From Capitulum mitella (Eukaryota > Arthropoda > Thecostraca > Pollicipedomorpha > Pollicipedidae), in assembly GCA_030062745.1 (NCBI GenBank), contig CP099839.1, forward strand, positions 44,156,796 to 44,220,795: DNA of 64,000 nucleotides, read 5' to 3'. Position 1 is the stretch's first letter. Each line of letters starts with the position of its first letter. This document shows, piece by piece, positions 532-62,603 of the stretch. The position numbers were made by a program, and so were the translations under genes. Under the pieces are notes generated by a model. The model was not told the DNA's origin, ran no database searches, and saw nothing but the letters and a program-made list of their open reading frames with translations.

Positions 532-686
532 CTGCCAGCAGAGCTCGGCACACTGGGCCAGTCCGGTGGCGCCCAACGGGTGGCCCTTGGAGATGAGTCC
601 GCCGCTCGGGTTCACCACGTACTTGCCGCCGTATGTGTTGTCATCGGCGTCGATCATCCGAGCCGCGCCGCCCTCCGGACACAGGC
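532..686 (-). CDS. SCP2: SCP2 exon 7 (last one in window)
   Basis: Encodes [20 protein letters not shown] and [17 protein letters not shown], ending AELCWQ before donor GTCAGT. The acceptor CGCCAG at 687-689 (plus-strand ctg) is the first of three tandem copies of this splice site. Phase 1 in, phase 0 out. Confidence 0.93.
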
Positions 687-3600
687 CTGGCGGTCAAACG
701 TAGGCGTCTGTTGTCCGCTGCCGCCAACAGAGGCATACAACGACCCGCGCCGCCCTCCGGACACAGGCCTGGCGGTCAAACGTAGGCGTCTGTTGTCCAC
801 TGCCGCCAACAGAGACATGCAGCCTGGCAAGACCCACGTCGCCCTCCAGAGACAGGCCTGACGGTCAAACGCAGATGTCTGCTGTCCACTGTCACCAACA
901 AGCAAACAGCCTGATACGAGGCGACAGAGGGAAGTTCAGTAATTCAAGGTACATAACGTGGCAACGGCGGCACCAAGAACGAATGAAAGCTCTTGGCCTC
1001 CCCCACAATATCGTAGGCCATCAACCCTGACACGATGATACACCGCGAGAAAGAAGGCTGCAACACATTCTGGGCCACGCCACTGAGAAGCTGCCGCACA
1101 CGCCTGTCACACGTGACGCGGAACCGGTCGGTCTGCGCGTTGGTTACCGGGACCGCGCTGCCCGCGCAGCCGTCCGGCCGTCAGTACGGACTCCGCTGAA
1201 ACGAGCGCCGGTCCCCGCCACCTACCGAGCGCCTCATACGAGATGAGCTCGTTCGCAGAGAAGCAGTCGTGCAGCTCCACCACCTGCACGTCGGCCGGCG
1301 TCAGCTTCGTCTCCGAAAACAGCCGCTGCGCCGCCAGCTTCGTCATGTCGTAGCCGACCTGCCGGCGGCCAACACCGGCCGGTTACGGGCCGCGCCGGCG
1401 CCCCACAGACGAGCAGAGTACCCGTCACGCCACTCACCACATGGTTTGGAGAAGCATCTCTCTTCCCACATTGTGGCGATTCTTGTTAAATATCATCACA
1501 CATGACAGATAGTGACAGAACAAGTCAATAAAATGAACAAATACATGCAAGATTACGTAGCCTATTTCATACACACACTCATAACCCAAGACCTGCCAAA
1601 AGCGTGGCGGGCATCTAACCATTTTAATACAGCTCTTCTCTTTGAGCGAGCTGGGCGGGTCGGTGGTCATCTGCATGCCCAGAATGCGGACGGCGTGAGC
1701 GCGCGCGGCGGGTGTGGCACACCGTTCCAGATAATGGCGCGACACGACCACGGCGGCAGCAGCGCCGTCCGAGGTCGGACAGCACTGCAGCTTGGTCAGA
1801 GGACCGAACACGGTCGGCGACGCCAGGATCTGCTCCAGACTGTACTGGTCCCGGAACTGGGAGTACCTGGCGGGAACCAGACCCACTCAGGTCACGCGGA
1901 GCGCAAGTCTCGCAGCTCTCACTGAGCACAGATCAGGAGGAGACAGATTTCACAGTCCTCACAAAGCGCAGATTACAGAGACGTCGGGATGTCCAAACAG
2001 ACATACAAGCTAGACGTTAGCTGGGATGTAATCTGTAAATACTTGAGTGCAAATAATTATGATACTCTCACTAGCGGAAGATTAAGCACCAAAGTTGGCC
2101 TAGAGTAACGTAGCACTAGCCCACACATGCTAGGCATCACACCAGTGCAAGTGTGTTGGTACAGTAACAACAGCAGAGGCGCAAGACTGGAGTACGGCCA
2201 ATTACCAGACTGGCGGTATGCCTGCGACAACGCTAGACGAGAACAGGGCCACGTGCGCCCCCCCCCCCCCCCGTCCAGAGCGAAGGCGGCAACGTCCTGG
2301 CGGTCCTCCTCACCCCCCGTCCGGGGCGGGGTGGCCATGCGCCGGCAGTGTCTCCGCCATGTCCGGCGCGGACAGAGCCACTCACGGGTTGTTGACCGAG
2401 TGCTTGTGGTTTTTCCAGGCGATTTTGGCCAGGTGTTCGGCGGTGGTGCCATGTTTCTCCATGTGCTCGATGCCAGCGTTGCCGAACATCTGAGCCGTGA
2501 TCGGCGCCGCCGCCAGCTCACGCACCTCGCTCATCATCTCCACGTGCTGGTCCATAGGGTTGGTGCGGTCCGAGAACTGGAACAGGCCAGCAGCAGACCA
2601 GACAGTCGTTAGACGACGGGTCAGATGTAGGGGCCAGCGCAGCTGGACTTCGACGGACTTATCAACCTCGTGTGCCCCGGTCAGGTCCGGCTCAAGGAAC
2701 TAAAAGGGACACGTAGACCTGATGCAACGGCGCAACAGACGACCAGCCCCTGGTCGACCAGAGGAAGATGCCAGGTCACGGGTCCGAAAACAGCCGGAGC
2801 CGGCACGCACCGCACTTGACGTTCACCAGGCCTCACCATGTCAACACAATACACACATGACGGCTAACGCGACGTGGCAACGTGTCGACATCCGACCCCA
2901 AACGGCGAAACAAAACACCACTCGCGGCGCAGTCCACCGCGCACTCACGGTGGACGAGAGTGAACCGCGCTGCATCTTCTCGAACCCGAGCGCCAGCGCA
3001 CAGTGCAGCTGACCGCCCCGGACCAGCTGGTACGCCAGGAAGAGCGCGCTCGAGCCGGTCGAACAGTTGTTGTTGACGTTGATGATGGGGATGCCGGTCA
3101 TGCCAATCGGGTAGAGCGCCCGCTGGCCGCAGGTGGAATCCCCTGGGCACAGCAGTTACCGATTTGGCTCGACGAAGCAGTATGAATAAACCGCTGGAGA
3201 CGACGAGAGACTGGCAAGTAGTCGATCCGGAAATGGATCAGTGCTCTACCCCAGACAATGAGGAAAATTAACAAAACAGCAAAAAACGCCCATTCCCTTC
3301 ACAAAAAAGAAACATGAAATGTGACAACTAACCGGCACCGAACAATACGACGGCGCGCGACCAGCCTCACCGTAGACGTAGCCCACGCACGCCTGCTGTA
3401 TCGCCGCGTATTCAGTGTCCGCGTCCGCCAGCGCCTTGGTGACGGCCTCCGACGCCATGTCCGGGTAGTCAAAATCATTTCGTCGGCCAGGCTTCTCAAA
3501 CTGCAACAGCAAATCGACAATGGCGACCCTCGTTTCGCAAGTTGCACTCACAGCTGGGTACCGACTACGCCCACGCCCAAAACGTTATAAATAATATCCT

Positions 3601-3962
3601 GGCTTCTCGCACTGGCCACGGAAAACTAAGTCGCGTTCAAAAATTGCTGAACGGGTGAAAACGCACCAAGAAAATGGCAACAGAAAAAGGGAAAAAGGAA
3701 TCAGAAAAATGTTGCACTAATAATTCTGTCAACTATAAAACGAACACAAAACTCATAACGTAACTGGCCCCGCCTGCATCAAACATGCTTGATCAAGTTC
3801 ATGGACGCTTCGGTACTCACCAACTCGTATTTGCAAACCATGCACGTCTTTAATTTGAAGGAATGTATTAAGCGAACAGTTTCACACCATGACGATTCTA
3901 CTTACCTTGGTCATTCCAACACCCAGCACAAAAACATCATTACTGGCTTTCTCAGACGACAT
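532..3962 (-). CDS. SCP2: Sterol carrier protein x, thiolase part (3' end beyond window)
   Basis: SCPx is a peroxisomal 3-ketoacyl-CoA thiolase fused in most animals to a sterol-carrier (SCP2) domain; it cleaves branched-chain and bile-acid-type 3-oxoacyl-CoAs. Seven exons on the minus strand (3906-3962, 3371-3500, 2949-3142, 2386-2576, 1620-1866, 1226-1358, 532-686) join in frame through canonical GT-AG introns to give 369 residues. Landmarks read in the translation are GVGMTKFEKPGR near residue 15, the nucleophile motif [12 protein letters not shown] (Cys about 89), [23 protein letters not shown] (about 301-310) and the thiolase signature [17 protein letters not shown] (about 343-359). The start ATG lies 19 codons before the first junction and fits the family. 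The last thiolase segment and the SCP2 domain were not found in 1-531 and must lie outside. Three copies of the exon 7 acceptor sit in tandem. Confidence 0.95.
664..900. repeat. Tandem repeat spanning the SCP2 exon 7 acceptor (three copies)
   Basis: Three copies of an 82-89 bp unit start near 664, 746 and 835. Copies 1 and 2 are nearly identical and copy 3 is diverged. Each unit holds, on the minus strand, the acceptor TTTGACCGCCAG or a variant followed by GCCTGTGTCCGGAGGG, the first bases of exon 7. Confidence 0.9.
1226..1358 (-). CDS. SCP2: SCP2 exon 6
   Basis: Encodes [18 protein letters not shown] and the second thiolase active-site block [19 protein letters not shown]. Acceptor GGCAG, donor GTAGGT. 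It ends with one base of a split Gly codon. Confidence 0.94.
1620..1866 (-). CDS. SCP2: SCP2 exon 5
   Basis: Encodes [33 protein letters not shown] and the segment ending KEKSCIKM. Acceptor CGCCAG and donor GTTAGA, a weaker but GT-type donor. Phase 2 in, phase 0 out. Confidence 0.92.
2259..2275 (+). repeat. Poly-C tract
   Basis: A C homopolymer inside the intron between SCP2 exons 4 and 5, next to a GC-rich stretch. No other feature is seen in this intron. Confidence 0.8.
2386..2576 (-). CDS. SCP2: SCP2 exon 4
   Basis: Encodes [15 protein letters not shown] through [13 protein letters not shown] with a split Pro codon. Acceptor TTCCAG, donor GTGAGT. It contains the conserved [16 protein letters not shown] stretch. 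Confidence 0.93.
2949..3142 (-). CDS. SCP2: SCP2 exon 3
   Basis: Carries the catalytic cysteine in [14 protein letters not shown] and the downstream [13 protein letters not shown] segment. Acceptor GCCCAG and donor GTGAGT are canonical. Phase 1 in, phase 0 out. Confidence 0.95.
3371..3500 (-). CDS. SCP2: SCP2 exon 2
   Basis: Follows acceptor TTGCAG and ends before donor GTGAGG. It encodes [20 protein letters not shown] through ACVGYVY, plus one base of a split Gly codon. This is the start of the thiolase N-terminal domain. Confidence 0.93.
3906..3962 (-). CDS. SCP2: SCP2 exon 1
   Basis: Encodes the 19-residue N-terminus ending in [11 protein letters not shown] is at 3962-3960 and the donor GTAAG follows at 3905. 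The exon ends in phase 0. It is more AT-rich than the later exons. Confidence 0.9.
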
Positions 3963-4069
3963 GATGCTCGCTAGACGACGGCCGTTTTTAACAGGGCGAC
4001 AGCTCCCTGCGAACAGATCAGATTCTGCTGCAGAGTCTTATCGGGCCCACAACGGCCCGGCAGTCCGTC

Positions 4070-4260
4070 CGCCGTCGACAATGTCGGGAGTGACTGTTCG
4101 CCGTTAGTTAGACTAAGTAGGTCACAGTGTGAAGCATGACTGTGCGCCGTCGACAGTGTCGGGAAGGTCTGCCCACCGTCGACACGGTGTCGGGAACGAC
4201 TGTCCGCGGTTAACACGGTGTCGGAAATGACTGTCCGCCGTCGACGCTGTCGGGAATGAG
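4070..4260. repeat. Degenerate 33-40 bp tandem repeat upstream of SCP2
   Basis: Repeats of the form GTCGACAGTGTCGGGAATGA (variants include GTCGACACGGTGTCGGGAA) occur about five times just upstream of the SCP2 start codon. They would lie in the promoter or 5' leader. Copies differ at many positions. Confidence 0.6.
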
Positions 4261-4888
4261 GGGCGGCCGGAGCGCAGCAGCCGACACCGTTATCGGCGGA
4301 TAAAGGTCGCGACTCTGGTTTGACCTTGGATCTCGCCTAACGCAGGCCGGGAGACAGCTTAGATCCGCCCCTGCCGTACGAACCTGGCGTCTAAAATCAG
4401 GGTCAACTGGCACCCGACGACTCTTCCTGTCCTCACGAGGTCAAAGCCACCTACGTTCATGCATCGTAAACTAGATCCATTACTGATTGGGTGCATGTTC
4501 GAAAGTACGAATTAATGCCCACCAGATATCTTCAAAAACCACGAAAAACAGCTGTCACAACCAGCCCCTCCTAAAAATCGCTCCTGTGTCTAACAACCCG
4601 CACACTGGACTGAGAGTTGTTTGTAGGACCAAAAGTTACTTAGCCATAAACGGAACGCATGTTCCATGCCCTCGCTAAGTTCTAACGACATTCTAGCGAC
4701 CACCACATGTTCTTTTCGAAGCTTTTGAAATATTGGTCAAATCTGCTTTGATTATGAAAACAGACAGCCTTCCTTATACCAGGAGAAACTTGGGTTTACA
4801 TGCAAAAGATGAGTAAGGACTTGACGTTTCAGACATAAGCCATCTTTCGGACCCTGCAAAGATCCTTTCTGACTTCATTTAACTTACT

Positions 4889-6107
4889 TTAACCTTGTTC
4901 CCGGAGGGCCAGACGGTATGGTCGATTCCCGGTGGGGGGGGGGCCGATTCGGTCCCCCCCCCGAGATCTCGAGAACTACTTGTCCGATTTCGTCGCAACA
5001 AACGGCAATCGATTTGCCAAGACGTGAACTACATTTTTATAGAAATAATTTTTCAAAATTTTGAAATGTGTGGATATAGGGGTGCAAAAATGTCAAAATC
5101 AGAGGTATTTTTGGACTTCTTATAACTCCGTTGTTTATCGACCGATTTCCATGAAACTGGCATGAATCGAGAGAATATGGATAGGACTTTTACCATGGGT
5201 ACACAAATCTGAAATTTTGGGAAAATCCATGGGCGTTCACAGGGTTTCAAAAATAGGAGGATTAGTTTTCTAACAACTGAATGAACAAAAGAGGCAAAAA
5301 CACTTTTTTGGCTTCTGCTAATCGTGTTATGCTAAAGAAGTACAAATCGCATTGAAATGTTTGTATAATGTTAGCATAGGCGGTGCCAGGGACATGAAAA
5401 AGGGGAAACTGTCAAGGTAACACGTTCTTTAGATCAACTTGTGACCTTTGACCTTAATGACCTCCAGTGACCCTGGAGTCACTTGGAATGATCTCGTATG
5501 CATTTAATATTATCTGCAAACGTTTTCAATCATTTGAATTCAGTCTATTTCAAAAATTTCGTTTTACGGCTATTGCGATATAAGGTACGCGCACAGACAT
5601 TTGAGGTCATAGCTCCGTGACCCGACCTGATATCAAGCTGAAACTTGGTACATAAGTAGAGGGCACCGTTCTATGTCGTATGCATTCCCGGTTTGGCATT
5701 TGAAAAAAACGGCGCCAAAATTATTGCGAAAAAAACAAATTTTGACTTTTGACCTTGACCTGACCTTGTAAAGTGACCTCAGATGAACAAAATTACATCT
5801 ACACATTGGCCAACTATTTAGCTATACATCCGTATAAAGTTCCAAGTTCTATCTACAAAAACTCCGTTTTGGGCAGACATTTTCCTTTTACCCTCAACAT
5901 GGCCAAAAATCGCCTGAGGTGCCTCACAAAAACGTTGCCTGGCTCCGCCCCTGAGCAAAATAGAATTCTGAAATTTTGTCATGGCGCGAAGAAAGAAAAG
6001 CTAGGAAAAGTGAAGAAGTTTCGTGAAGCTGCGTTAAAAAGCCTGGAATTGGCAAGCAAAAAAACCGAGGGGGGCCGATTCAGTCCCCCTGCCGCGAATA
6101 GGGTTAA
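4889..6107. mobile_element. TTAA-bounded miniature transposon, family A copy 1
   Basis: Bounded by TTAACC...GGTTAA, with terminal inverted repeats close to TTAACCCTATTCCCGG. The same sequence appears in inverted orientation at 44801-45889. TTAA at both ends with CCC/GGG termini is the signature of piggyBac-type non-autonomous elements (established for that superfamily). No transposase ORF is present; the 138-aa ORF at 5773-6189 runs past the element end and shows no known domain. Inside are many TGACCT/AGGTCA motifs and a G-run/C-run hairpin near each end. It lies between the divergent SCP2 and AKAP10 genes. Confidence 0.85.
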
Positions 6108-7283
6108 TAGACTGAATTCCATACCATTTGGATGGGCAGGACTGTTTAGTATTTTCAGCAACATTCAGCCACATGTTCCATGCCACTGAAACAGACTGCT
6201 CTGAACTCTCACCAAACGACCTGTCGCACATGGTTTACTCCAACTTCCACTCCTTGTTCACTGTCGACCTTTAGTCTGTTCAACAATATTCAACATGCCA
6301 AGCATACGTGACCTCAGTAACTACGTCCGATCATCATAAGGATACGGACTTTCGAACAGCCTCGTCCGCGACCACTGCACCACAAAAGGTCGTTGCACTG
6401 CCACTCATGGTTGCTGCGTGGCGAATGGTCTATGAGTCCGGCATGGTGAATGATCTGGTCTGAACGTCAATTTCCTCCCTTACGAAACAACACGTAAAAG
6501 TGAGAAACCGCCTGTCATAGCAGCCTTCCTCCGTCCCGGCCCCTTTTCGTCTGTTCTTTTCGTGATCCAGCTGAAAAACGAGTTCCAGCAGCAGACAAGA
6601 AACCTGATCGAATCCGCAGTCAATGACAGGTTGTACTGCATCCACTACTCTTGGCGTGTGTAATGCGTACTATGCACACGAGATGAAAAATATGTTGGTT
6701 GATGGTGCTTCTGATGGTTGAGGCCATTATTCTAGATGCAGTCAAAATGGCATAAAATGTGCATCATAGTGCGGCTTAACCTACCTTCTATCATTAGTCT
6801 TTGCATAATGCATCTGACGTACACACAAGACAGACTCAAGACCCAAGGTTCCGGCTTGTAGCTTTGTATGGCATAAACAATGCAGTATAATCTGGTATTT
6901 TTGGCTGGGAACATCCTCTTTTTTAACATTTTTTTTCTACCCACCAGAAATCAGGTGGCCAATAGTGTTCCCGCCCCAATCCATCACGACGCAAATCGCC
7001 TTACCTGAACTCCCAGGGAAATCAAGTTATTAACCAAAGAGATGAATACAAATTGTGGCAGTCCCTGCAATGAAAGGAAAACAAAATAAATAAATAGATA
7101 AAATGGAAAACCAACTACTAAATATTGCCCATATCAGTATGTGTTAATAAACAAAAGAGAATGTAGTCTCAGCCAAGAAGCTTCCGACTGTCCGCTAAAC
7201 CATTGCCATAAAATGTAGTCCAGTTAGTGTAAACAAAAGATCAGCTGCTTTCTTCTTGAGGTGGGTGGAAACACTCGGAGGCC
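6108..7283. other. Intergenic, nothing recognised
   Basis: AT-rich sequence between the family A element and a small hairpin. No ORF with a recognisable domain, no RNA gene and no clear repeat were seen. Confidence 0.5.
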
Positions 7284-7398
7284 CTTTTTATCACGGGCCG
7301 ACCACCGGGGCAGCCCACCAGGACTATGCAAGGCTTGCTGTCTGGTGGGCCACCCCAGCATTGGTCAGTTGATAGCGGTGGCCCAAATGATAAAAAAG
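7284..7398. repeat. Imperfect inverted repeat (hairpin)
   Basis: The outer arms CTTTTTATCA and TGATAAAAAAG pair. An inner stem GGGCAGCCCACCAG pairs with CTGGTGGGCCACCCC. It could be a tiny foldback element; no target duplication was resolved. Confidence 0.55.
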
Positions 7399-7450
7399 CA
7401 CACGGCACTCATTCAAATGACTCATACATGAAAAAAACAACTCACAGACT

Positions 7451-7452
<2 letters not shown>

Positions 7453-7506
<54 letters not shown>

Positions 7507-7620
7507 AACCCACACCCACACATGACACGCATACGCACGCACACACACCTATACGCAGATGCAAACACCCACGCACACAGGCACCCACCCACCCGCACAC
7601 ACATACAAACATACACACCC
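7453..7620 (+). repeat. CT then CA microsatellite
   Basis: A (CT)n run to about 7493 passes directly into a degenerate (CA)n run with CAC-rich interruptions. The serine/leucine and threonine/histidine ORFs over it are products of the repeat. Confidence 0.95.
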
Positions 7621-13000: not shown

Positions 13001-14902
13001 GTTTTTTATACTTAGATTTTGCAAAAATTAATTGGTTACCAATCTACACAACTGGCGGAGCTTTATTCGTGAGAGCCTGTTTATTTCCAAAATATGTAAT
13101 ATTCTTTAAAACTTTTTGAGGTTCCTGGTATTACTTACGTCTGTGCAAGCCAGTTCTGCCATTTTCTACCCATTCTGAGTAATTCATCGCTGATTTTGAC
13201 GGTGGTACACTTTGGCCCACTACAGTTATTCGTGACCTGACTTCAGGTCAATGGCTGGAAGTCATTGATACTTTGCCCAGTGACGGTAACTAGATGTCTG
13301 CTTCACTTTACTAAAAATGTTATGAAATATTCCGTCAATTTCCGAATAAAACGGCATGACTTAAAAATGGGCTTGACCTTAGGTCAATGACCCGGAAAAT
13401 TCCGGAAAATCTGAGATAATAGATTCATTGCATCTGTCGAGATCACTAATCCCTGAAAGTATTATTGTGATGTCTTGTTTTCCGAAAAAGTTATAGAGCG
13501 TTTAACTTTTTTGGACATGGTCCGTTTGACCTGGCCTAGGTCAGGCACCCGACCTAACCTGAGGCCAACACTGTGACACAAGGTGTAAAAATGATGAAGC
13601 AAAAGGGACACAAAGTTTCGTAGTTCTGTGTTTGTTCGTTCTCTCGCAATTCCAGGAAAACCTTTGGGGGATGGCGGTCAACTCCCCCCCAGTCGGGGAC
13701 GGGTTAAGGTTGTATTCGTAGTGCTACTTACATTTTCGTCTGTTGAGCAGGATTATTTTGTACCAGAATCGAAATGATGGGACACGCGGCGATGTTACTC
13801 ATGATTTTGGCCCAGTTGCAAAGCATTGCCAATAGGCCATCCTCTTGAATTACGGTCTTAATCTTAATTTCTGGATAGGATTTAATTCTTTTTTTTCCTT
13901 TCTTACTGAACTGGTTGCATTTTAAGAAAATGTGTAAGGAATGGACCAGGTATTTCCGTTTTGGTTAAATACCCACAATTGTTGGTATACGTTTGACCAC
14001 ATTTCTAGACGTGTTCAAGTGCTAATATCTACCAGCAGAGCTGTTCGTTGTACATTGTCTTCACACCTTGCAGACGTCTTCTGTCCCCTGATATGCCATC
14101 GCTTCGCCTCCCATGCCATGGTAACCCGTCGTGTCTGCGGACATTTGTCCCGTGGGACGCCGCCCCCTGTCCCCAATGACGCGTGCCGTGCCGTCTGACG
14201 CCGACCGCGTCCGCCGGCGCGCAGGTATTTCTCGCTGCAGGCGGCCAGCCCGCTCGGCTTCAGCAGCCTGACGCGCACTGAGCTGGAGCTCAACATCTGC
14301 CGCGACGGTGGACCGCAGCCAGAGTGTTTCCTCCGGCCGATGCTGGTGCTGCACAACGTCCTGCAGCAGGTGAGCGGACCTGATCTGGTCTCACCTGACC
14401 TGACGAGCTGGGGAGCAGAACTGACCAGCAGGTGAACGCACATGACTGGCAAAAGAGACTGGACCAAAAAATGAGACGCCCTGACCAGCAGGTGATTGGG
14501 CCTGACCAGCAGGTGAGCAGACTGGTCCAGCAGGTGAGAAGACCCGTCCAGTTGGTGAGATGACCTGTCGATCAGGTGAGCAGATCTGTCCAAGATGTGA
14601 TAAGACCTGACCAGTAGGCGAACGAACCTGACCAGCAGGCGAGCAGACCAGACCAGTAGGTGAGCGTGCGTGGCCTGGAGGTGAACGGACCGGCCAGCAG
14701 ATGAGTGGACATGACTTTCAGGTGAGAATATCTGACCTGCAGGAGAGTGGACCTGACCATCACGTGAACGGACCTAGCCATCAGTTCAATGGACCTGACC
14801 AGCAGGTGAAAGACCTGACCAGCAGCTTAGCAGCCCTGACCAGCAGCCAGCTGGTGAAGTTAGTTGACCAGTGGGATAGAGAACAGGGATGGCGGGTTTA
14901 AT

Positions 14903-19460: not shown

Positions 19461-22400
19461 CTGAGGACGTCCGCACCGAGTCACGGTCAGCATGAGACAA
19501 CATGGCCGCCGATACATGCGCTGTAGGAGGACTGTTGTACTGTAGGGGGGCTGCGCGGCTTAGAGACATGCTGCCCATTCCCCTTTGAATGCGGGGGCGG
19601 CCGCCCTGGCCGGCGCATCCGGACATGTGCGGTCCGGATTGGTCGAGATGTCACGTGATTCGCAGCGTCAAGGTCGGGTCGCCGGGTCGCGGGGAGGGGA
19701 TTGCGGAGACTGAGTTCGGGCGGCGTGGGAGGAATGTAGCGCGAGTCACTGTACCATATCGACCTGCAAACAGAGCCGCATCTGATTCAATGTGTCAATA
19801 AGATCACGCTTACAGTACTGTCACAACACACGGAAAATCAAATAACCGAAACACTACAAGCATAAGTGAGTCAAAGCAGGGACATACATACCTTCAACGA
19901 CGTCCGGGATGGCGGTGCACCACGGCGCGATATCAATAATTAAACATCAAAATCTACAGCATTCAGCGAATTCTGTATCTGCTGAAGTACCTGGGTCCGA
20001 AAACTGTCTTCACAGCTTTGATTACTCCAAGGACATAGCACTCAACCAAAAGCCGCCCACCGACGCAGCACAGCGTGTCGTTAAAACGTGAAGTCCCGAA
20101 ACTGCTGTATGCACTCGGCCACGATGTCACGGCAAAATCACGTCCCGAATCATGACGTCACGGTTCCGTACTGCCTCGCAGCCGTCACAACAGCGGAAAG
20201 CACGACGGGCAGACAGCAGTACCCCGGGCAGCGCAGCCACCGTTCTGGAGCGTTCCCCGGGCAGACAGCAGTACCCCGGGCAGCGCAGCCACCGTTCTGG
20301 AGCGTTCCCCGGGCAGACAGCAGTACCCCGGGCAGCGCAGCCACCGTTCTGGAGCGTTCCCCGGGCAGACAGCAGTACCCCGGGCAGCGCAGCCACCGTT
20401 CTGGAGCGTTCCCCGGGCAGACAGCAGTACCCCGGTGAAGCCGCCGTCCCGGAGCGTCCGAGAGCCGCAGCCCTGTCCCGTCCCCGCCCGCTCACCGCCA
20501 GGTCTCCGGGCTCGCAGGTGTCGATCGGCCGATGGCTGCAGTTGAGGTCACCCACCACCAGCACGTGGTGGCCGGCGGCCCGCAGCGCGGCCGCCCGCCG
20601 CCGCAGCGCCGCGTAAAACAGCAGCTTGTAGCGGAGCCGCTCCGGTCGGTCCGGGTCCACGCGCGGGCAGTAGACGTTCACCACGGCCAGACGACACCGC
20701 CTGTCGTCGCCGGCGCACTGCCCGGCAGACAAAGACGGCCGTGAACACGGCCAACCGCGCCCAGGCGTACGCAATTCACAGGCCAAACGAATCACCTGGT
20801 AATTAGTGTGGCACAAACTGGCCACGAATGACGAGTGGACTGACATAAAAACCCGTCATGTCTCAAGTGCGACAGCTTTGAACAGATGACCCAGTTGTTT
20901 ATCAGGCTTAATTGCAGTCTATGTCAAACAGATTGCTTACAACAGGACCTCACTCAGTCCGCGCGAGAGGCTGGATTTCATGTATCATTTCAGAATGCAA
21001 ATTAATATTCAATTCAAGCCACATACATGGGTAAGAAATAAAAGCAATGCAGTAGGGCAAAAAACAAAAACGGGTCGAGCGAATAACAAAAACATGGAGT
21101 AGCCTCCATTCACACAAAGCAGCAAGAGTGTACTATGCACTGACCACTGGACTGTAACGGTCAATCTAAACCTGCCGGGTCCGTATGCACCTGGCAGGTC
21201 CGTCTGTACTTGGCACGTCCGTCTGTATCTAGTAAGTTCGTTTGTACCTGGCACGTCCGCCTGTACCTTGCAGGCCTGTTTACACCTGGCCGGCCAGTCT
21301 GTGCACGGCATGTCTGCACCTGTCAGACCAGTTTCTGCGGGTCTGCGTCTGCAGGCCAGTCTGTGTCTGGCTGGTGTCTCTGTACCTGGCAGGTCAGCCG
21401 GTGCACGGTGACCAGACAGCGGCCCTCGGCGTCCAGCTCGGTCCGCTCCGCCGGCTCCAGCTCAGCCGGGATGGCGCCGTAGCAGCCGACCGGGCCCGCT
21501 CCACCGCCGCCGCCGGCCAGAGCCCGCGAGCCGGCCAGGCCGGGCTCGGCAGCCAGCGGCGTGGCCGAGTCTCGACAGTAGGTGGCCACGCCTGGGGGCA
21601 CGGACAGCGCCGCCGGCGTCAGGGCCAGCTAGATAAGCGACGCATCAGGACTCGGTGCATGACACCAGCCGGTGTGTGTAATCACGCAGTGTTACAACGC
21701 AACTTCGAAAAAGAGGGTGAAGCAATCCAGCAATAAAGCTTTCACAACAGTCCTCTGTCATAGTGCATCCACAACTTTTACTCACTGGATGCATCATTCG
21801 GCATTTGATGGCATATTTAGAATCACACCATTTGCTGGGGATTCTTTTTTTTTGTCCCCCCCTCATGTCTACCTTCGTAATTAAAGCACAGATCGAAGCA
21901 CTTCAAATAACGACAGCCCTTAACAACAGCTATCAGAAAACGCATTGCTTTTATGCTTAATGTCACGGATGACGTCAAAGATCACGTCAAATACAAAACG
22001 AATGTATCCACTCTTGAAGTCCCGTGGGCATCCTGGAAAATGTAAGCGTAATTTGCCTCATGGAACTGTCCTAAAATTTTATAACAGTCTTACAGAAAGA
22101 GGTCCGAGGAAGAACACGGGGCCAAGGTCACAGGCCACGACAAGGTCAGCTTCAAGGCCAAGGACAACTTTTCGTAAGGAATGGTTTTAAATGTCATGGA
22201 ACCACTCTTTGCGCCAGTTAGAACATAAAATAGACCCTGTTATGTGATTCGACGCCTCCGACCCCCCATTAATCATGGAACTACGGTCACGTAAAGGAAA
22301 AATTTCACATAAAGGACTTTGAAAAAATGTCCATTCAAGCTTTGACCTGAGCAGGCCATTAGATGGAAATGGTATCTATGTAATTTCAGTCTGACCATTC

Positions 22401-28275: not shown

Positions 28276-28866
28276 GGTAATCCTTACCGATCGCACACCA
28301 TGCGCAGAGTCGAGGGTAAGGTTAACGCGCGAGTGTAGTTCCCGATTTCACCACCAGGGTGATATTCGTTCTTTTTCTCGCCGCTAGGGAGCGTACGTAA
28401 AAATACTGGCATTCGCTAGGATGGTTCCGCTCAAGAACGCGCGAGTGCAGTTGCCGATTTCGCCACCAGGGTAATATTCGTTAGGTTAGGTTAGGTTAGG
28501 TTAGGTTAGGTCTGAACGAATTCATCTGCTTTCCATCGTGGTTCGGCAATTCTGGAGAAAGTGGTCCTTTTTTCGTGATTGACCTCACCTGTGACGTCAT
28601 CAGCGGGTCAAAAATAAAAGTGTGTAAGTCACAGAAACGAAACGTTCGGCGCTATCAACTGGCGTTCGAATCAGCCGAATCGACCTATTGGTTATCATAC
28701 CATTGGTTCTTGAGCGGAACCATCCTAGCGAATGTCAGTATTTTTACGTACTCTTCCTAGCGGCGAGAAAAAGAACGAATATCACCCTGGTGGCGAAATC
28801 GGAAACTACACGCGCGTTAACCTTACCCTCGACTCTGCGCATGGTGTGCGATCGGTAAGGATTACC
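28276..28866. mobile_element. Foldback (Mutator-like) element with perfect 9-bp target duplication
   Basis: Left arm 28276-28438 and right arm 28706-28866 are near-identical inverted repeats beginning GGTAATCCTTACCGATCGCA. The bases CAAAACAAC occur immediately outside both ends (28267-28275 and 28867-28875). Arms of about 160 bp with a 9-bp duplication are typical of Mutator/MULE elements. The loop holds a second copy of an arm segment and six TTAGG units. There is no coding capacity. Confidence 0.88.
28481..28510 (+). repeat. Interstitial TTAGG array, six units
   Basis: Six perfect TTAGG repeats, the ancestral arthropod telomere unit, inside the foldback loop. They begin exactly where a partial arm copy ends (ATATTCG). 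Confidence 0.95.
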
Positions 28867-33296: not shown

Positions 33297-33795
33297 GAAA
33301 AGTTTGGTAGACAAAGGTTCGTACGGGAGAAAGTTCGAAAGGAAAAAGGTTCGTAGTTAAAGGTTCATAAACATAAGGTTTGTATCGGAAACGGTTCGTT
33401 CCGGTTTTGCGCTGAAGATGTGGTACAGGACACTAGAGGCCGCAGGCCGATAGATGGTGCGATCGGACTTGGCTTGGTCCAATAAAGAGTCAGTCCAAAG
33501 GTTAGGTTAGGTTAGGTTATGTTAGGTTCGGCTACGCTGGGTTAGTCTCGGATACTATTATAGGTCCGTCCCATTTCCAATGCGAACGTTTTCCGATACG
33601 AAGCACAAGTTTACGAGCTTTTTGTTACGAGCCTTTTTCCTAACAGACCTTTCCCGTTACGAATATTTTTTCTGACTAGCATTTTCCATACGACCTTTCC
33701 AGTACCGGCCTTTTTCATTACGAACCTTTTCCGATAAGAACCTTTTCCGATACGAACCTTATGCATACGATCCTTTGGCTACGAACCTTTTCCCA
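33297..33795. mobile_element. Inverted-repeat element with AGGTTCGTA-type motif arrays, copy 2
   Basis: The left side carries AAAGGTTCGTACGGGAGAAA-type units. The right side carries at least six CCTTTTCCGATACGAACCTT-type units in reverse orientation. The centre has GGTTAGGTTAGGTTAGG and a TGGTGCGATCGGACTTGG block also found in the reverse complement of copy 1. Confidence 0.6.
33501..33528 (+). repeat. Interstitial TTAGG-like array
   Basis: GTTAGGTTAGGTTAGGTTAT followed by GTTAGG. These are telomere-type units, one mutated. Confidence 0.85.
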
Positions 33796-53030: not shown

Positions 53031-53033
53031 CAG

Positions 53034-53118
53034 ATAATGAATTTTCAATCTAACTCCCTGCGGAAATGCCCAGCTACTTCAACCGGATCTTCGGTGACGA
53101 CATCAGAATCACGAACTG
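53034..53118 (+). CDS. Possible isolated exon
   Basis: A pyrimidine-poor but plausible acceptor GTATTACAG and a strong donor CTG|GTAAGA flank 85 bp open in one frame (IMNFQSNSLRKCPATSTG). A second frame gives a short ORF ending FGDDIRITNW then TAA across the donor. No family is recognised and no neighbouring exon was found. Confidence 0.2.
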
Positions 53119-53222
53119 GTAAGAGCAGCACAACGGAAAACAATATAAAAAAGGGACACGAAATGTTCAGCAAAGACACTGATGCTGTTGAGAATAAACT
53201 TTACTCTTACATAAGGATTTGA

Positions 53223-54500: not shown

Positions 54501-54519
54501 GGTTTCTGCTCGAGGCCAC

Positions 54520-54830
54520 TACTGTCTGTGGCTGCGTGGTTCCTGCCATTGCTGTCTGGTTGCGTGGTTCCTACCACTGTTGTCTGTAGCTGCGCGGTTC
54601 CTACCACTGCTGTCCGTGGCTGCGTGGTTCCTACCACTGTTGTCTGTAGCTGCGTGGTTCCTACCACTGCTGTCCGTGGCCGTGTGGTTCCTACCACTGC
54701 TGTCTGGCTGCGTGGTTCCTACCACTGTGTTCTGTGGGTGCGTGGTTCCTACCTCTGCTGTCTGGCTGCGTGATTCCTTTCATTGCTGTCTGTGACTGCG
54801 TGGTTCCTACCACTGCTGTCTAGCTCCTAT
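54520..54830. repeat. 30-bp minisatellite
   Basis: About ten copies of a unit close to GCTGCGTGGTTCCTACCACT followed by GCTGTCTGTG, at 30-bp spacing. Because 30 is divisible by three, ORFs run through it on both strands. Confidence 0.93.
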
Positions 54831-54969
54831 GGCAGTGCTCCTAGCACTGCCACACTACCGCTGTGGCTGCGTGGTACCGATTTCCCATTCTGAACCCCGC
54901 TGGACAGCTCCATGCTTCTACCACACTCAGAAATCCCTGACCCTCACAGGTCGCCCATCTGTCGCTAGC

Positions 54970-55180
54970 CCTGAGCCACAGCTCTAGTTCGTGGTTTCCT
55001 GAGCTGAAGTCTCCATTCGTGAGTCCGAGACTGTAGGCTCCATCCGTTAGTCGGGGATGTAGTCTCCGTCCGTGAGTCCGGGGCTGAAGTCTCCGTCCGT
55101 GAATCCGGCGCCGCAGTTTCCGTGAGCCTGGAACTGTATGCCTCCGTCCCTGAGCTCGAGGCTCTAGTTTCCGTACGGGA
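54970..55180. repeat. 27-bp minisatellite
   Basis: About seven copies of a unit like GAAGTCTCCGTCCGTGAGTC at 23-27 bp spacing. Most copies contain the donor-like string CCGTGAGT or a variant. It borders the GC-rich block that follows. Confidence 0.8.
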
Positions 55181-55199
55181 GTTACATGTCACCGGTCGC

Positions 55200-55625: not shown

Positions 55626-55629
55626 ATTC

Positions 55630-57650
55630 AGGGGCAGCTGGTTTACGTAATGGTCTCGCTATGCGCCCGAATAGGTCGGGTAATTTGAGAACATCACTCC
55701 CATACCTATGGCAAATCCGTGACATTGTTCAGGCACTCTTGGCCACTGCCCAAGGGCTTCCGAGCCATAAAATTGGCCAGCATTTCTTTAGTGTCCAGCC
55801 TGCATGCCTCTTTGTTTCCACGTAAGGTCAGTATCTTTTGTATCAAGAAGACCGAAATGGATGCACATTCTGTTGGCTTTAACGTTTCCTGAGCATGCAC
55901 GTAGATAAGGGAATGACCAGATGCATCAAGATAATAATGATCATGATGCACTAAACAATCTTTTTTTACTTTGAACGAACTTTGCCTAACATTCATGCCA
56001 CTAAATTCTCCGCGCAATATGTTTGATATATAATCGTACACTGTTTAAGCGTCTATAAGCACGGATCGGCGATAGATATTGATAGATACGGCCGATGCTG
56101 TCGAGACCAAGTAACCAGACTGATGCACATGACACTTCTCATGCCGGGTCCTCGTCTAGACGCTACAAAAATTCTTCGATCCAGAACTAGACTACTGCAT
56201 TTCAGAATGAATCAGACTGAGTTGTTGCTATGGCGCAGTTTCTTGTACAGTTGTATTTGACATCCAATAGACCTCTGGTAGGGAGGACGTCATATTCGTG
56301 TGTCAAAACCGAAAGCTAAAAAGACGAGGAAGGTAGGGAAGATCTTGCTGCGTTTCCAGTACCCTGCATTCGGGAAAATGATTACGTCGCGTAGGCCAAA
56401 GTTGAGTATGCTGCGCAAAAATCGGTATGACAAGTGGGCTGAACCATCGCAATGCTTGAAGCACGGACGATGAATGAATGTGGGGGTGGGGGGTGGGGGG
56501 TGGGAGCTCAACAGCGGTAACTTTCTCGTATAACTGTATAAATTTAGCATTATCATATTACGCTGGACGGAGAAAAATGGCCCCAAGAGACATTTCAAAG
56601 AGACGCAATTCTGATGGCGTCCCGCCGTCACCGACGTGAAAATATGTAGGCCAGGTTGGAAATATGCCAGCTTACATATATTTATAAATGTAACTGTCCT
56701 CATATATCTTCCTCACTAACCGTTCCATGTCTGCTCTTGATTTTGTTGCATCAGATGGAAATTTGTCTGCTGGAGAATTTAACACGTTTTGACAATTTTT
56801 TTTACTCAAAACCTATTAGCAAGTCATACGCTTTTAAATAACTAGACCATTGTTGTTCATCTTAGGAGAGCTTTGTGTCTGCTTGCCATTACTCTTTCCA
56901 TTGCTCATTAGTTCGTTGCCCCATAAATCATATAAGGCCGCCTAAGTAACAGGTGCTGAGCCGAATGCGCCATATGTGCTCACATTCGAGAGCAAAGAAT
57001 CCATCTTCCCTTCCATCGTTAGCGCGAAGCTATCCATTTTGGACGGAGTTTTCGTTTTTGTTCCTCTCGTGGGCCGTCATTGGCTAATGCGTCTTCTGAA
57101 CATGACGTCGCCTGCTGGTCAACTATCGCCCATTAGTGGATAGGCCCAGGTGACTGGGGTGTATTAACATCTCGTACAGTCAGCTCACCGGCCTCAGCTT
57201 CGTTAGGTAATCACCGATATTACGACTTTCGGCGACAAAATACAACATGGCGCGGGAAGAGTAATCGTTCACTTTTGAACAGACATTGAATGCTACCACC
57301 GGTCGCATCGTCGCTTTGAAGTTTCGTAAAATATGTGCGCAGACTGCAGGCGTGACTGCAGACTGCACCGACATGATTGTCCCGCTCTGAATTGGCTATT
57401 TTTTCGCCTTGTTGGCCCGCATTTCCCCGGTGATGTTGTCTGGCTGAAAAGGGCATTTTCCACATCGTGGCATTTCCTTTTGAGAACAGAAGATCCTCTC
57501 AGAGAGCCTTGGCTGGACCACGAGGTGAACAGCCCCTTTGTGCCTTGCCTGCACCATGAAACAGAAATTCATCTGTTTTGACCGCACCACAAAATAGGGC
57601 ATTCAGCTTGAACTAGACCATCAGACAAGCTCTCAATTCCTTTCTGGCCA
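55630..57650. other. Intergenic, nothing recognised
   Basis: AT-rich DNA with ORFs up to 137 aa and no recognisable domain. Confidence 0.4.
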
Positions 57651-57654
57651 AGAC

Positions 57655-57830
57655 TATGGAACAGACAAGACCTACCTGGGATGGACCATACAAGAGACAA
57701 CATTTCCTACCATGGCTGGACCATATGAGAGTCAGCACCTCCTGCTTTGACTGGACCGTTGAAGAGCCAGCACCTCCTGCCTTGACTGGACCACAGAAGA
57801 GACAGCACCTCCTGCCATGGCCACTGAGTG
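57655..57830. repeat. 35-bp minisatellite
   Basis: Five copies of a unit like AGACAGCACCTCCTGCCTTG followed by ACTGGACCACAGA, at exactly 35-bp spacing (CACCTCCTGC at 57736, 57771 and 57806). Confidence 0.92.
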
Positions 57831-59200
57831 CGCCCTGTTGCATTATTCATGAGACAGCCCAGTGCAAAGGGAGAACGATAAATCTTGTCCTTCAGTCATA
57901 GTAGCCGGAGGATCACTGCATACTTTTGCAATGCAACGTAACTACGCAGCTTCATTCATCGGCAGGGATGACGCCATCCGGCTAAAATGGTCCTGTTCGT
58001 ACGTACCACTTTTACCGGGAAATTTCCCTCCGCAGCTGGCCAGCAACACAACCGCTCCAGTTCTTGTCAGGCGCCTCCTGCCAGGCGTAACAAAGACGAC
58101 AGCCGCCACCAGTCAGCCGCAGACTCTAGTTTCGGTTAGCTGAAGTCAGTCACGTAATTGACTGGTCTGCTTCTCACGCTGTGTTTTCTGTAAGAGTGCG
58201 TTCTACTTCAATGAAGAAGAACGTAAAATTAGGCAGGTTTCTAAGCGTAATTTATAACAGTCCAGACGATCTAGATGAAACCACTTTGTTGGGTGTTTTT
58301 CTTATACATGCTTTGCAAAAGTGTGGTGGTCACATACGATTTGCATGGCAAATCTTCCCTCAGAATATATCATGCTGGTCGTTTTGTTTTTTGTATTGCT
58401 CCCAGTCGAAAATGAGAACGACCGAGAGAATTTCCATCCTATGTCATTCTCGTCAAAAATGGTCGAAGCTAAAACAGTTTGCTTTTTACGCAGTTTATTG
58501 TCAAAACGAACCAATCGGGCAAATTTTGATTCGTACAGTGCGTTTTGCCAAAACGAATAAAAAACTGTTAGCAATGCTGAAAGAAAGTTACGATTTTGCC
58601 ACTTACGTTGCCTTTGGTGTGTCAAAAATGTCACATATACAGCACAGACTGTTTGCGTTCGGTAACGGCAAATCCACCACCCATCCTAATACAAACAAAT
58701 AGACGCCTGCACATCGGTTTTCTCCGAAACGAACAGATGACTTAAGTTCGATGGAGACTAAGGAAGATTTTTACATCTTTTAACTCTTGTTGGGTCACTG
58801 TGGATATAACACGAATGAATCTGAAAAAAACTCGCAGGGCCGGCTCTTCCCGAAATTAATAAGGAAGAAATTAATAAGGAAGAAATCATTTTTAAAGCCC
58901 ATTATCTCCATTCAAAACCATGAAGCGGAATGGTTTTGAAGTGAGGATACACGCACAGAACCCAACATCGTGGTTCCACCCACGACCAGCTGGGCCAGAA
59001 TGGTTTCGGATAACGCCACTCCTGCAGCAGGAAGAGGAAGATACTTAGCCAGCCAGCTGGGTATTACAGTTCACCTCGTGACCAGAGGATTTTGCGTCTC
59101 GTATCGTGTCATGAATCAGTAAGGTGCTCGGCACGCGTGCGTGATTGAAGGGAGTGCTGACGGCGGTGAGGGCGCGGGCGTTTCAGTTCGGATCGAATAA
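57831..59200. other. Intergenic; one uninterrupted AT-rich ORF
   Basis: The plus-strand ORF 58181-58702 (173 aa) is long for this composition but shows no domain and is overlapped by a 110-aa ORF on the other strand. A 16-bp direct repeat GAAATTAATAAGGAA is at 58853-58884. Confidence 0.35.
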
Positions 59201-59244
59201 AGTCTTGCTGGCTGTGAGAGTGAGTTCCCGGCCGCGATGGCTTC

Positions 59245-60240
59245 TTGTCACTAAGCAGCCGGAATCTGTTTCATCCCGGTAAGGGTTACGAAGGCTGTCT
59301 GGTCACAAGACGCGGTTGTCTCCCTCAGAAACTTTTCTTGCCGGCGGTGACATGGACAGGCGCTCCACAAGGTTCCATGTCCCTCGCGTACTTTTCCAGT
59401 TGCTGCTGCACTAGTTTTTGTCAGATTGGCACCAGACACTGGTGGACATTGCGTTTGAATTTTGCCGTCCATGCCACAATAGTATCAACTTCTTCAACTT
59501 CTTTGAGTAACTTTTCACGGACTGTTGTCTTCTGTCATGTTCGGACGGACGTGTTCCACCCCGGTCTGCAAAAATTTAAAGCAACGGTGCTGTTCATTGC
59601 TGGTCGTCGTGCAGCTGAGCACGGTGTCGAGGTCGGTCACCATGTGGACGGCGCCTGTCCGGAGCCGGTCAGCGGTGCTGGCGCTGTCCCGGCCGGCGCT
59701 CGCCGCGGGGAGACCCTGCCGGCCGGCCGGAGCCGTTCCGTTCCCACGATATCTGTGCCGACCGGCAGCGGTCAGGGTCACCGCGGCGCCTGCGCTGCAC
59801 CGGCCGAGCCACGGCGCCACCGAACGGTCCGGCCAGCACGCGATCGGCCGGCCCCTCCGCCGCCGGCCGCCGGCGCCGCCCGCTGCATCCAGACAGTGGG
59901 GCGCCGAGCGCGGCGGAGGACACCGGCCTCTCGCGGCCGCCGACTCCCACGTCCCGCCGCGTTCCGCGCTGATCGGACCGGCTCCGACTCGTCCGCCGGC
60001 CCGGATCGCCTCCGTGTCGCCGCCGACGTGGGAGCCCTGTTACGAGACCGTCTCTACCTTGCGATGCTCGTGGGTGTGGGCGACCATAGTGCTTCCTCCT
60101 TCTGGCGTTTCACAGCTGACTGGAGAATGGGTACCTCCCGGCCTGCAAGGCACATACGGGCACATACGGGCACATACGGGCCCTATTTTAGCGTCGGAAC
60201 GCCCATCAGCCGGCTTCAATGTATAATTAACCGCAATTAA
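59245..60240 (+). other. GC-rich ORF of unknown status (331 aa)
   Basis: The longest single frame in the window that is not part of a recognised gene. Its second half (from about 59620) is Arg/Pro/Ala-rich, and a second plus-strand frame and a minus-strand frame are open over the same bases, so composition alone could explain it. It might include a 5' exon or leader of the synphilin-like gene about 700 bp downstream. It ends over an 11-bp tandem GGCACATACGG repeat at 60151-60182. Confidence 0.25.
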
Positions 60241-60689
60241 TGTCGATAAATTATTCGGACGCCGCTTATCTGTACTACCAGACGGTATTCCGAATCTGGG
60301 ACGGAAAATGCGATTGACGGTCGGCGAGATGGATGAGAGTGCGCCACGCCAGGGCCGGCGTCCGGCGGCGGCGTGCTGTGGCCGCCGACAGGGCGCCGTT
60401 CATGTCAGGCGGCCGTTACCCGGCGCCGAGGTGGCGGAGAGCCGCCTCCGCCGCCGCCGACAGGGCCGGCCAGCGCCGACGGGCCGCGCCCGGCCGGCCG
60501 GGACGGCAGGACGTCCGGACCGACGCGACGGGTCTCGGCCACCGCTGCTCTGGCAGTGGCCTGCCGTGGTGGCCGGGCCGGCGGCTGACAGTCCTGGGCT
60601 GCCCGACCACTGGCACAGAGCCATGCCATCCCTGGAGAGCCGGACCACCGCCACAGCGACGTCGTGATCTAGTCCTGACTCCGTAATCC

Positions 60690-60912
60690 ATATGACGTCA
60701 GCTCCAAGTCGACGCTGTCCTCCAGGCGACGTCAGCTGTAACCCTGACCCTATGCGCCGTGTGACGTCAGTTATAATTGTAATGTTGTGGGCCGTGCAAC
60801 GCCGAGCTTCATCCTCGCTCCGGTGCCGCATGTAACATCACACCTGTCCCTAGTGCTGTGTCCGGTGTGACGTCAACTGATAGCACGGCCTGCTGTGCCC
60901 CAGGTGACGTCA
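60690..60912 (+). repeat. 35-bp degenerate array ending at the first visible synphilin exon
   Basis: TGACGTCA-type motifs (TGACGTCA, GCGACGTCA, TGCAACGCC, TGTAACATCA) occur near 60693, 60728, 60762, 60796, 60831, 60867 and 60905, i.e. every 34-38 bp. The last one is the exon start CAG|GTGACGTCACC. Four are perfect TGACGTCA, the CREB/ATF consensus. Confidence 0.85.
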
Positions 60913-61121
60913 CCGGCTGGACGGCCGGCCGCCGCTCGGCTGGCCTGAGGGCGGGCCTCATCCAGACGCACGTGCCCAAGGTCAGCATCCAGGCGCGCTC
61001 TCGACCGAGCCAAGAGCGGGGCTGCCGCTGCCGCCCGCTCTCCCAGGACATCCTCTGCCTGGAGCGCGATGCCGACGCCGTCTCCTGCAACTGTTCGGCG
61101 CGAGCGCACGGCAAGAGCAAG
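60904..61121 (+). CDS. SNCAIP: Synphilin-like exon (first visible)
   Basis: Acceptor GCCCCAG, donor AAG|GTGAGA. Phase 1 in, phase 0 out. Its first bases are the last unit of the 35-bp TGACGTCA array. Cys-rich segment near the end (DADAVSCNCSARAHGKSK). Confidence 0.6.
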
Positions 61122-62603
61122 GTGAGACGCGCTGGTCGGCCCGCTCGCCGCTGTGGTTGACCGGCGAAAGCGGCGTGATTTATTCGTCTCCGGTGTCGCG
61201 GCATCCACGCGATTTCCATTGTTTTCTCGCCTCGGCGGTATTCATTGGCGGCCGGGTGATTTCTCGAGACGTCATCCGGGTGAAACCATTACGGTCGGGC
61301 GCGTCGCTGTCGCGGGACGTTCCGGCAGCTCCGTCGAGGGACGCAGCGCGCTGCCGCTTCCAGAGGCCGCGGCCTGGCGCTGCGTCTCCCCGTCCCGACT
61401 GACCGCCGGCGCCCGGCCTCTGTTGCAGTCCGCGGCCTCCGTGCACGGCGACCACGTGATGGAGGAATACAAGCTGGACGACAAGGAGCTGGCCGCCCTG
61501 GAGAAGCTGTACGACTTCCCGGCCCGCTCGAGCATGGCCTCCTCGCAGGTGCGCGCCGTCAGCATCATCGACACGCTGAGTCAGATGGCGCGCACGCCGG
61601 AGGCGCGCCGGCTGGCGCAGCCGCCGCCGCGGCCGCACGCCGCCAAGCAGCCGAGCAAGCGGACGCCGGCCGGCGGCGCCCGCTCCGAGGCGGACGGTCC
61701 GGCCGGGCCGCTCGACCGGGAGGCGATCATCGCGCGCCTGCTGGCGGAGGCGGCGCGCAGCCCGCCGCCGCCCATCCCCAGCCGGAGGCCCGACCTCTCC
61801 GTGCTCAACATCCGCGCCGAGGCGGCCAATAACGCGGCCGTGCGCGGCAAGCTGCCGACGCCGCCGGCCGGCGGCGCGCGCGAGCGTCGCGACGGCCAGC
61901 CGCCGCCGGCCGCCGCCCCGGCCCGGCCGCGCGAAGACCTGCTCGACGACCTGTACGGCCGCATCAAGGGCCGCCGGCCGCACGAGGTGCGCCGCACGCC
62001 CGACTGGATCCGCACCATCTTCGACGTAGCGCGGCGCGGCGACATCGCCCAGCTGGTGAGTGCCGCCGCTCGTGTGGCGGCTGCGTGCGGAGCCGCGCGC
62101 CACCCGCCCACGACGCCGCGGCCGGCGCGGACGCGGCGGAACCTGCAGTCCGGTCGGGGGCGGAATCGGCACAGGTGCGGCCGGCCCGTCCGGCACCTGT
62201 CGGCATTAACGCAACAGACTCGGCGAGATGACCGGCTTTCGACGGTGCGGGTCGGCTCCGTGCCAGTAAAAGTGGGGATCATTGCCGCGTCGAATCCTGT
62301 CGGCGCTGCGGCCGGCGCCGGACGGGCATTCCGCCGGAGGCCTCCGATCGGCGCGGCCCAGCGTCGTGCCTCCTGCACCTGTCTAATCCGGAGACTTTAC
62401 AGCGCTCCTCGCTGGAGGACATGGAGCCGACCCTGGTCCGCAACCTGTCCGACCACCACGGCAACAACCTGGCGCACGTGCTGGCCGCCTGCGGCCACGT
62501 GCAGGCGCTGGCGTGGCTGGTCGACACGTGCGGCCAGGTGCTGAGCGAGGCGCTGGCCGACGAGAACAAGCACGGCCTGACCCCGAGCGTGGCTGCAGTC
62601 AGG
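60904..62603 (+). CDS. SNCAIP: Synphilin-1-like ankyrin protein (partial)
   Basis: Three exons in phase (60904-61121, 61429-62055, 62403-62603) give 348 complete codons with no start or stop seen, so the gene extends both ways. The first has a Cys-rich stretch (GCRCRPLSQDILCLERDADA). The second starts with EEYKLDDKELAALEKLYDF, continues through a long Pro/Ala/Arg linker and ends RTPDWIRTIFDVARRGDIAQ. The third reads HHGNNLAHVLAACGHVQALA and ENKHGLTPSVAAV. In human synphilin-1 the first ankyrin repeats have the same order: an ILNIVKEGQ helix, NGNNLLHIAASQGHAECL, then EKLTPAGLAI. Synphilin-1 is a cytosolic scaffold that binds alpha-synuclein and E3 ligases. The assignment rests on remembered similarity over about 75 residues; another ankyrin protein cannot be excluded. 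Confidence 0.6.
61429..62055 (+). CDS. SNCAIP: Synphilin-like exon (middle)
   Basis: Acceptor TGTTGCAG, donor CTG|GTGAGT. It is 627 bp with phase 0 at both ends and strongly GC-rich. An acidic N-terminal helix is followed by a low-complexity linker and the helix that precedes the ankyrin repeats. Confidence 0.75.
62403..62603 (+). CDS. SNCAIP: Synphilin-like exon (ankyrin repeat)
   Basis: Acceptor TTTACAG, donor AGG|GTGAGT, 201 bp, phase 0. It encodes SSLEDMEPTLVRNLSDHHGN and the ankyrin helices NNLAHVLAACGHVQALAWLV. Confidence 0.8.

Follow-up and report, generated by a model that had tools for sequence, protein, structure and literature searches.

Four genes in a stretch of 64,000 bp of the genome of the barnacle Capitulum mitella (contig C1, positions 44156796-44220795; hereafter the window), namely SCP2, an AKAP10-like gene, APEX2 and a synphilin-like gene, each carry one splice junction inside a tandem array that lies in the gene's own intron and includes exon bases. 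This raises the question of what such arrays represent: marks of intron birth, products of a duplication process seeded at the junction, or intronic repeats that extend as far towards the exon as is tolerated. The reading favored here, to which we assign a probability of about three in four, is that they are junction-crossing minisatellites of the type called mirages in amphioxus, which arose by tolerated tandem duplication in introns older than the arrays; the pattern looks like harmless intron growth, not intron birth. The assembly comprises 477 Mb in 16 contigs, with C1 measuring 45.5 Mb. For the arthropod cuticle domain chitin_bind_4, a Pfam search scored 150 hits among 627 candidates, which points to an arthropod host and speaks against amphioxus.

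Splice junctions within minisatellites of the window

Because splice consensus alone could produce matches between a junction and its intron, which a control with shuffled oligonucleotides does not by itself account for, a foreign-junction test was run, in which the 26-mer of each junction was scored in its own intron against 139 26-mers from foreign junctions. The SCP2, AKAP10-like, APEX2 and synphilin-like junctions ranked 1, 1, 1 and 2 of 140, and their junction oligonucleotides had 2, 6, 5 and 4 copies, compared with means of 0.03-0.07 for shuffled oligonucleotides (0.05 for the synphilin-like gene). In a rerun covering 33 junctions of 17 window introns and 126 foreign oligonucleotides, with four hand-set edges off by one base, the same junctions ranked 1, 1, 1 and 2 of 127, while for the other 29 of the 33 no place in their own intron matched at 65% or higher. 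A sequence-only reading of the window had proposed this arrangement, one junction per gene, with two donors (AKAP10, APEX2), two acceptors (SCP2, synphilin-like) and unrelated units of 82, 21, 19 and 35 bp for SCP2, AKAP10, APEX2 and the synphilin-like gene, and on these points it is upheld. It had also pointed out AG|GT or AG|G at each of the four junctions, which is true and carries no evidential weight, since an acceptor by definition has AG at its end and donors mostly have AG at positions -2 and -1 (A in 66% and G in 89% of the donors with a score of at least 1 used for the gene model described below).

The SCP2 array (SCPx thiolase, minus strand) is an 82-bp minisatellite at 659..900, detected by Tandem Repeats Finder (TRF), which spans the acceptor; the first base of the thiolase exon (532..686, from gene model and alignment) is 686 and thus falls within the array. 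Its three copies, at 72%, 91% and 100% identity, contain about 24 exon bases each. The unit, composed of exon and intron bases, is clearly in register with the junction, as are those of CCT2 and CCT7 outside the window; a junction register is also seen in the units of the AKAP10, APEX2 and synphilin-like arrays, but these are degenerate. Similarity to SCP2-thiolase (E 4e-161) makes for a firm gene name, and the spliced protein aligns to the SCP2-thiolase of PDB entry 6hsj with no gap over the array junction.

On the plus strand, the AKAP10-like exon (14241..14369 in the gene model, with a hand-read start at about 14226) ends in ...CTGCAGCAG and is followed by the donor GTGAGCGG at 14370. A 21-bp minisatellite of donor-like units (CCAGCAGGTGAGCAGA) reaches from this donor into the intron (14360..14846), and TRF places its main part, with 17.6 copies, at 14480-14846. 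Eleven further junction-like copies show 67-76% identity; the first 110 bp of the array are degenerate, and the stretch from the junction to the main array has no significant periodicity of its own (P 0.30). The name AKAP10 is a weak suggestion from an RGS match (E 0.07) and from the similarity of the last exon to the AKAP10 kinase-binding helix (E 0.58). The APEX2 exon on the minus strand (21386..21628, its upper edge set by hand, as the gene model did not predict it) ends in ...CTGACCTGCCAG before the donor GTACAG at 21385, from which a 19-bp minisatellite of donor-like units (ACCTGCCAGGTACAGACGG) extends into the intron (21162..21394; TRF rows at 21170-21332 with periods of 19-38 bp). Here ten further junction-like copies show 63-74% identity, and the sequence separating the junction from the main array again lacks significant periodicity of its own (P 0.32). 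The gene name is firm, given the Exo_endo_phos domain and the GRF finger in two downstream exons. An intron of the APEX2-like gene holds, at 20206-20435, a 52-bp array of 4.4 copies with 100% identity, which is either very young or homogenised.

The array of the synphilin-like gene (60694..60915, plus strand, 35-bp unit) is degenerate and was delimited by autocorrelation: that of 60691-60915 peaks at 35 bp and exceeds 500 of 500 mononucleotide shuffles, and TRF reports 60694-60737 alone within it. The array spans the acceptor of an exon (60904..61121, first base 60904) predicted from its coding score of 21.5 and acceptor score of 5.5, and a weak ankyrin match (E 0.06) hints at the gene name. 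GACGTCA cores stand at 60694, 60728, 60763, 60869 and 60906. The palindrome TGACGTCA, whose core repeats within this array, occurs 36 times in the whole 240,805-bp sample, about ten times the 3.7 occurrences expected at equal base frequencies. The 35-bp TRF array at 57682..57816 (no strand assigned), which the gene model leaves without an adjoining exon, is a different one from the synphilin junction array.

Junction arrays outside the window

Genes outside the window were sampled by Pfam hits, blind to repeats. Contiguous hits gave introns with called splice sites in the CCT (31), myosin (18) and adaptin (16) families, after 8, 6 and 2 hit pairs, respectively, had been dropped because none of their junctions passed the score cut-off. 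These homology-placed introns served to train a small gene model, which found again 69 of the 72 sites called in nine training loci and whose gene models beyond the conserved domains are predictions. It yielded 158 ab initio introns, from which 24 were dropped (weak flanking exons or extreme length); 126 of the 134 retained lie outside the window, in 35 loci. The Aldedh family, with 12 of 80 candidates scored, and the Sec1 family contribute no introns to the sample.

A junction was considered strongly recurring when it ranked 1 of 140 and had at least four match places. Six of the 126 introns outside the window have such a junction, two in locus L043 and one each in L052, L044, L037 and L038, the weakest being that of L052, whose donor holds the word TGACGTC, frequent in the sample. 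Junction arrays are therefore not confined to the window, where the proportion is higher (4 of 17 introns, P 0.019), the window having been picked because of these arrays. Clear spanning arrays are present in two homology-placed CCT introns: the CCT2 acceptor array has a 55-bp unit, 7.4 copies and 34 exon bases, and the CCT7 donor array a 35-bp unit, 14.8 copies and 21 exon bases. The CCT2 protein (...INVFINR|QLIYNYPEQLF...) aligns to CCT-beta with no gap over the array junction, which, together with the SCP2 alignment, suggests at the protein level that one boundary is spliced in these two genes and that the protein is unaltered. Among the 18 myosin and 16 adaptin homology-placed introns, which are counted in the rate, none has an array that takes in more than a single exon base. 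The arrays thus occur at donors and acceptors alike, in several unrelated genes and with unrelated units.

Donor arrays were also reached through the octamer CAGGTGAG, by a whole-genome search for three copies spaced 8-38 bp. There were 1,053 such triples, compared with 88 for the reversed octamer GAGTGGAC. The first 100 places listed are all on C1, where they reach 43.7 of 45.5 Mb and represent at least 11 arrays. Among these, the upstream flank was read for nine of 11, and seven start where a predicted coding exon has its donor: the first exact copy coincides with the predicted donor in L072 (ALMS motif), L073, L074 (F-box), L075, L076 (dynein AAA_8) and L080, and in L079 the predicted exon ends 18 bp before the first exact copy, at a GAG|GTGAGG consistent with the unit. 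The array of L077 has no coding sequence upstream, and L078 yielded no call. For L073 and L075 (no Pfam run) and for L079 and L080 (Pfam without a match), coding status is given by the coding score. The L080 array, about 2.1 kb long, has a 45-bp unit which carries the exon tail. To the extent that the sequence-only reading had suspected a process acting genome-wide, the recurrence outside the window, in sampled introns and at predicted donors on C1, bears it out; seeding at AGGT, which it had offered as the cause, is not established, as set out below.

Age of the introns and origin of the arrays

Recurrence of 24-mers follows a gradient across the exon-intron border. It amounts to 0-2.4% in exons (0-3 of 121-126 at positions 24-72 bp inward), 3.2% for 24-mers centred on the junction (4/126 donors, 4/126 acceptors), 2.4-4.0% at 12 bp into the intron and 5.6-11% at 24-120 bp. 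A two-sided search, which favors the interior, finds recurrence for 7-14 of 126 at intron positions 24-96 bp from the junction, and a one-sided rerun, searching as at the junction, gave a similar outcome (6-12 of 126). TRF arrays cover 0.9% of exon and 7.7% of intron sequence.

Under the favored reading, tandem duplications would occur throughout introns, and selection would purge them from exons unless the exon-proximal copy still supplies the junction. A short segment comprising an exon end and the adjoining intron start or end would be tandemly duplicated, with additional copies accumulating on the intron side. The exon-proximal copy would remain the working splice site, being the only one that yields the conserved protein in SCP2 and CCT2, and the inner copies would be excised with the intron, so that expansion would be nearly neutral, with turnover probably by slippage or unequal exchange. 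To judge from the coverage gradient, the junction may mark roughly how far towards the exon an array can extend and still persist, and array edges would consequently accumulate there. Unit length is divisible by three in 3 of 15 hand-listed units, and there is therefore no sign of inner copies serving as coding sequence. In seven of eight arrays the splice dinucleotide of the copies is no less conserved than the other unit columns, and hence shows no sign of decoy purging; the synphilin-like array shows the opposite (0.57 vs 0.77), and the test, with copies aligned without gaps and alignment drift uncontrolled, is a weak one.

Several results weigh against this reading. In the CCT7 alignment, a single extra residue directly follows the array junction. 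Of the 33 arrays outside the window with a TRF score of at least 50, 10 have an edge within 15 bp of a junction or across it, where 3.6 (P 0.002), 4.5 (P 0.010) or 5.8 (P 0.056) are expected under uniform placement at a tolerated exon overlap of 15, 25 or 40 bp. The corresponding figures are 6 of 21 at score 90 (2.2-3.6 expected, P 0.02-0.15) and 6 of 15 at score 130 (1.6-2.6 expected, P 0.003-0.03); strictly spanning arrays, window included, number 5 of 34 (1.6-4.1 expected, P 0.02-0.40). Triples of CAGGTGAG occur at 4.59% of its sites (1,053/22,952), compared with 0.94% (88/9,377) and 0.90% (133/14,734) for the composition-matched controls GAGTGGAC and CAGGAGTG; GTGAGGAC, at 2.50% (321/12,823), starts with the donor-like GTGAG and is hence not a clean control, and in-sample intron octamers of matching GC stand at 2.1%. 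In the sample, 9 of 22 CAGGTGAG octamers are at called donors, compared with the seven of nine inspected arrays on C1 (P 0.11). Such a surplus, together with the great length of some CAGGTGAG arrays, is what would be seen if local tandem duplication in this arthropod lineage had true mutational hot spots at active splice junctions, and at AGGT donors above all, with about 2-5 times the intron background and for example through transcription-linked nicks or R-loops at exon ends. We consider this unlikely: junction 24-mers recur less than those of the intron interior; the CAGGTGAG triples are clumped, one array giving almost half of the 100 listed places, and counted as arrays per site on C1, with site numbers estimated by length share, CAGGTGAG (at least 11 in about 2,190) is not significantly above the shuffled octamer CAGGAGTG (3 in about 1,406; P 0.27). 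The commonest donor octamer of the sample, AAGGTGAG, has 85 matches in 18 arrays genome-wide, single sites being uncounted, and exact triples in the sample (1 of 134 donor octamers, 0.30% of interior octamers) are too few to distinguish the two. The measures thus conflict; duplication seeded at AGGT is not demonstrated, and junctions may be enriched a few-fold at most. If junctions were hot spots after all, exon-intron borders would be a recurrent target of transcription- or chromatin-linked duplication, independently shared with lancelets.

Intron gain by tandem duplication leaves both intron ends as copies of one segment. It was reportedly described by Hellsten in 2011, and potato RdRp is said to be a case. 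What it has in common with the barnacle arrays is local tandem duplication of an AG|GT segment; the arrays differ from it in being one-sided. Seven array introns could be tested, and in none of them is the repeat unit similar to the junction at the far end (P 0.06-1.0, with APEX2 at P 0.062, and none below 0.05); the synphilin-like intron was left out, as its donor is not placed. Moreover, the array intron of CCT7 (eta) matches an intron of CCT3 (gamma) in alignment column 600 and in phase 1, and no TRF array above score 31 is present in the CCT3 intron at that column. The two genes (CCT3 and CCT7, loci L037 and L043) have two common intron positions of equal phase, at columns 109 and 600. As the CCT paralogues are ancient, the CCT7 intron is most simply taken to be older than its array, parallel insertion being the alternative. 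One shared intron position and seven one-sided arrays thus support the view that the introns predate the arrays, the position comparison covering the CCT7 intron.

The further suggestion of the sequence-only reading, that such arrays are a route to new introns, accordingly finds no backing here. That they are relics of intron creation by duplication of AGGT segments, in the manner of Rogers and Hellsten, and that the introns are young, would fit units which hold exon bases and AG|GT or AG|G, and as far as the available text of PMC3087553 goes, tandem duplication is a published route of intron gain (with Rogers 1989 cited for it), mirages have been proposed as a source and one model ties junction arrays to intron birth; given the dissimilar intron ends and the position shared by CCT7 and CCT3, this is very unlikely for the barnacle. 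Only a slim chance is left for selection having kept the arrays as rows of decoy splice sites, for instance as extra binding sites for U1 snRNP or splicing factors acting on splicing efficiency or premature polyadenylation. The conservation of the splice dinucleotide in seven of eight arrays agrees with this, but the differences are small and uncontrolled for alignment drift, the reversed synphilin-like array counts against it, and 120 of the 126 introns outside the window do without a strongly recurring junction. It is extremely unlikely, finally, that ordinary intronic minisatellites resemble splice sites by coincidence, through consensus motifs or low complexity: the donor consensus is G-rich, as many minisatellites are, and shuffled octamers form triples too, but in the same intron all of the 139 foreign junctions, or all but one, score below the window junction itself, and the units hold exon bases specific to their gene, about 24 for SCP2 and 34 for CCT2.

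Known counterparts, other repeats and significance

Amphioxus mirages share with the barnacle arrays a tandemly duplicated boundary, occurrence at both 5' and 3' boundaries and an unrelated unit in each gene, and the amphioxus Adh locus is said to show copy-number polymorphism or somatic instability. Ordinary intronic minisatellites also have short tandem units of variable copy number inside introns; they differ from the barnacle arrays, whose units include exon bases and whose edge appears to be a working splice site. In the available parts of the two reports, mirages are reported from a small number of lancelet genes, as minisatellite-like tandem duplications of the exon/intron boundary in Adh3 and the globins BflGb6 and BflGb9 (PMC3087553) and further in troponin C and PGBD5 (PMC3902484). 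Their units measure 10-72 bp in Adh3 and 150-160 bp in the globins, and the many copies with splice signals reportedly leave normal splicing undisturbed (PMC3087553, same part of the text). In the barnacle, by comparison, the host is an arthropod, units measure 19-82 bp and arrays up to about 2.1 kb, and unselected genes were sampled and the rate compared with the intron interior; the arrays are known here from the DNA of one assembly. A literature text search gave no arthropod example of a mirage among the matches listed, mostly titles and abstract openings. What is new is the presence of mirages in an arthropod, with a sampled rate and an intron-interior test; the kind itself is known from lancelets.

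Other repeats in the window and the sample were recorded as well. TRF finds TTAGG-type tracts at 28480-28511 (GTTAG x6.4) and 33499-33528 (AGGTT x6), some 1.3 Mb away from the end of the contig; TTAGG is the arthropod telomere unit. At 54516-55123, a 30-bp array of ten copies and a 27-bp array of four copies lie beside a GC-rich stretch, and a promoter or first exon is possible nearby. Pfam hits at C16:5450234-5453643 (G000), C15:16425920-16428593 and C14:17197973-17199021 show the same myosin-head exon (model positions about 377-436) in 2-4 neighbouring copies, which resemble the alternative exons of muscle myosin genes.

Arrays at junctions and intron birth are separable questions. Each array constitutes a natural experiment, in which the spliceosome faces from several to dozens of nearly identical sites and picks the outermost one among donors and, among acceptors, the last in a row of similar AGs. 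The presence of mirages in unselected genes of an arthropod, in a few per cent of the sampled introns, suggests that tandem duplication generally gives rise to them as a by-product where genomes are rich in minisatellites.

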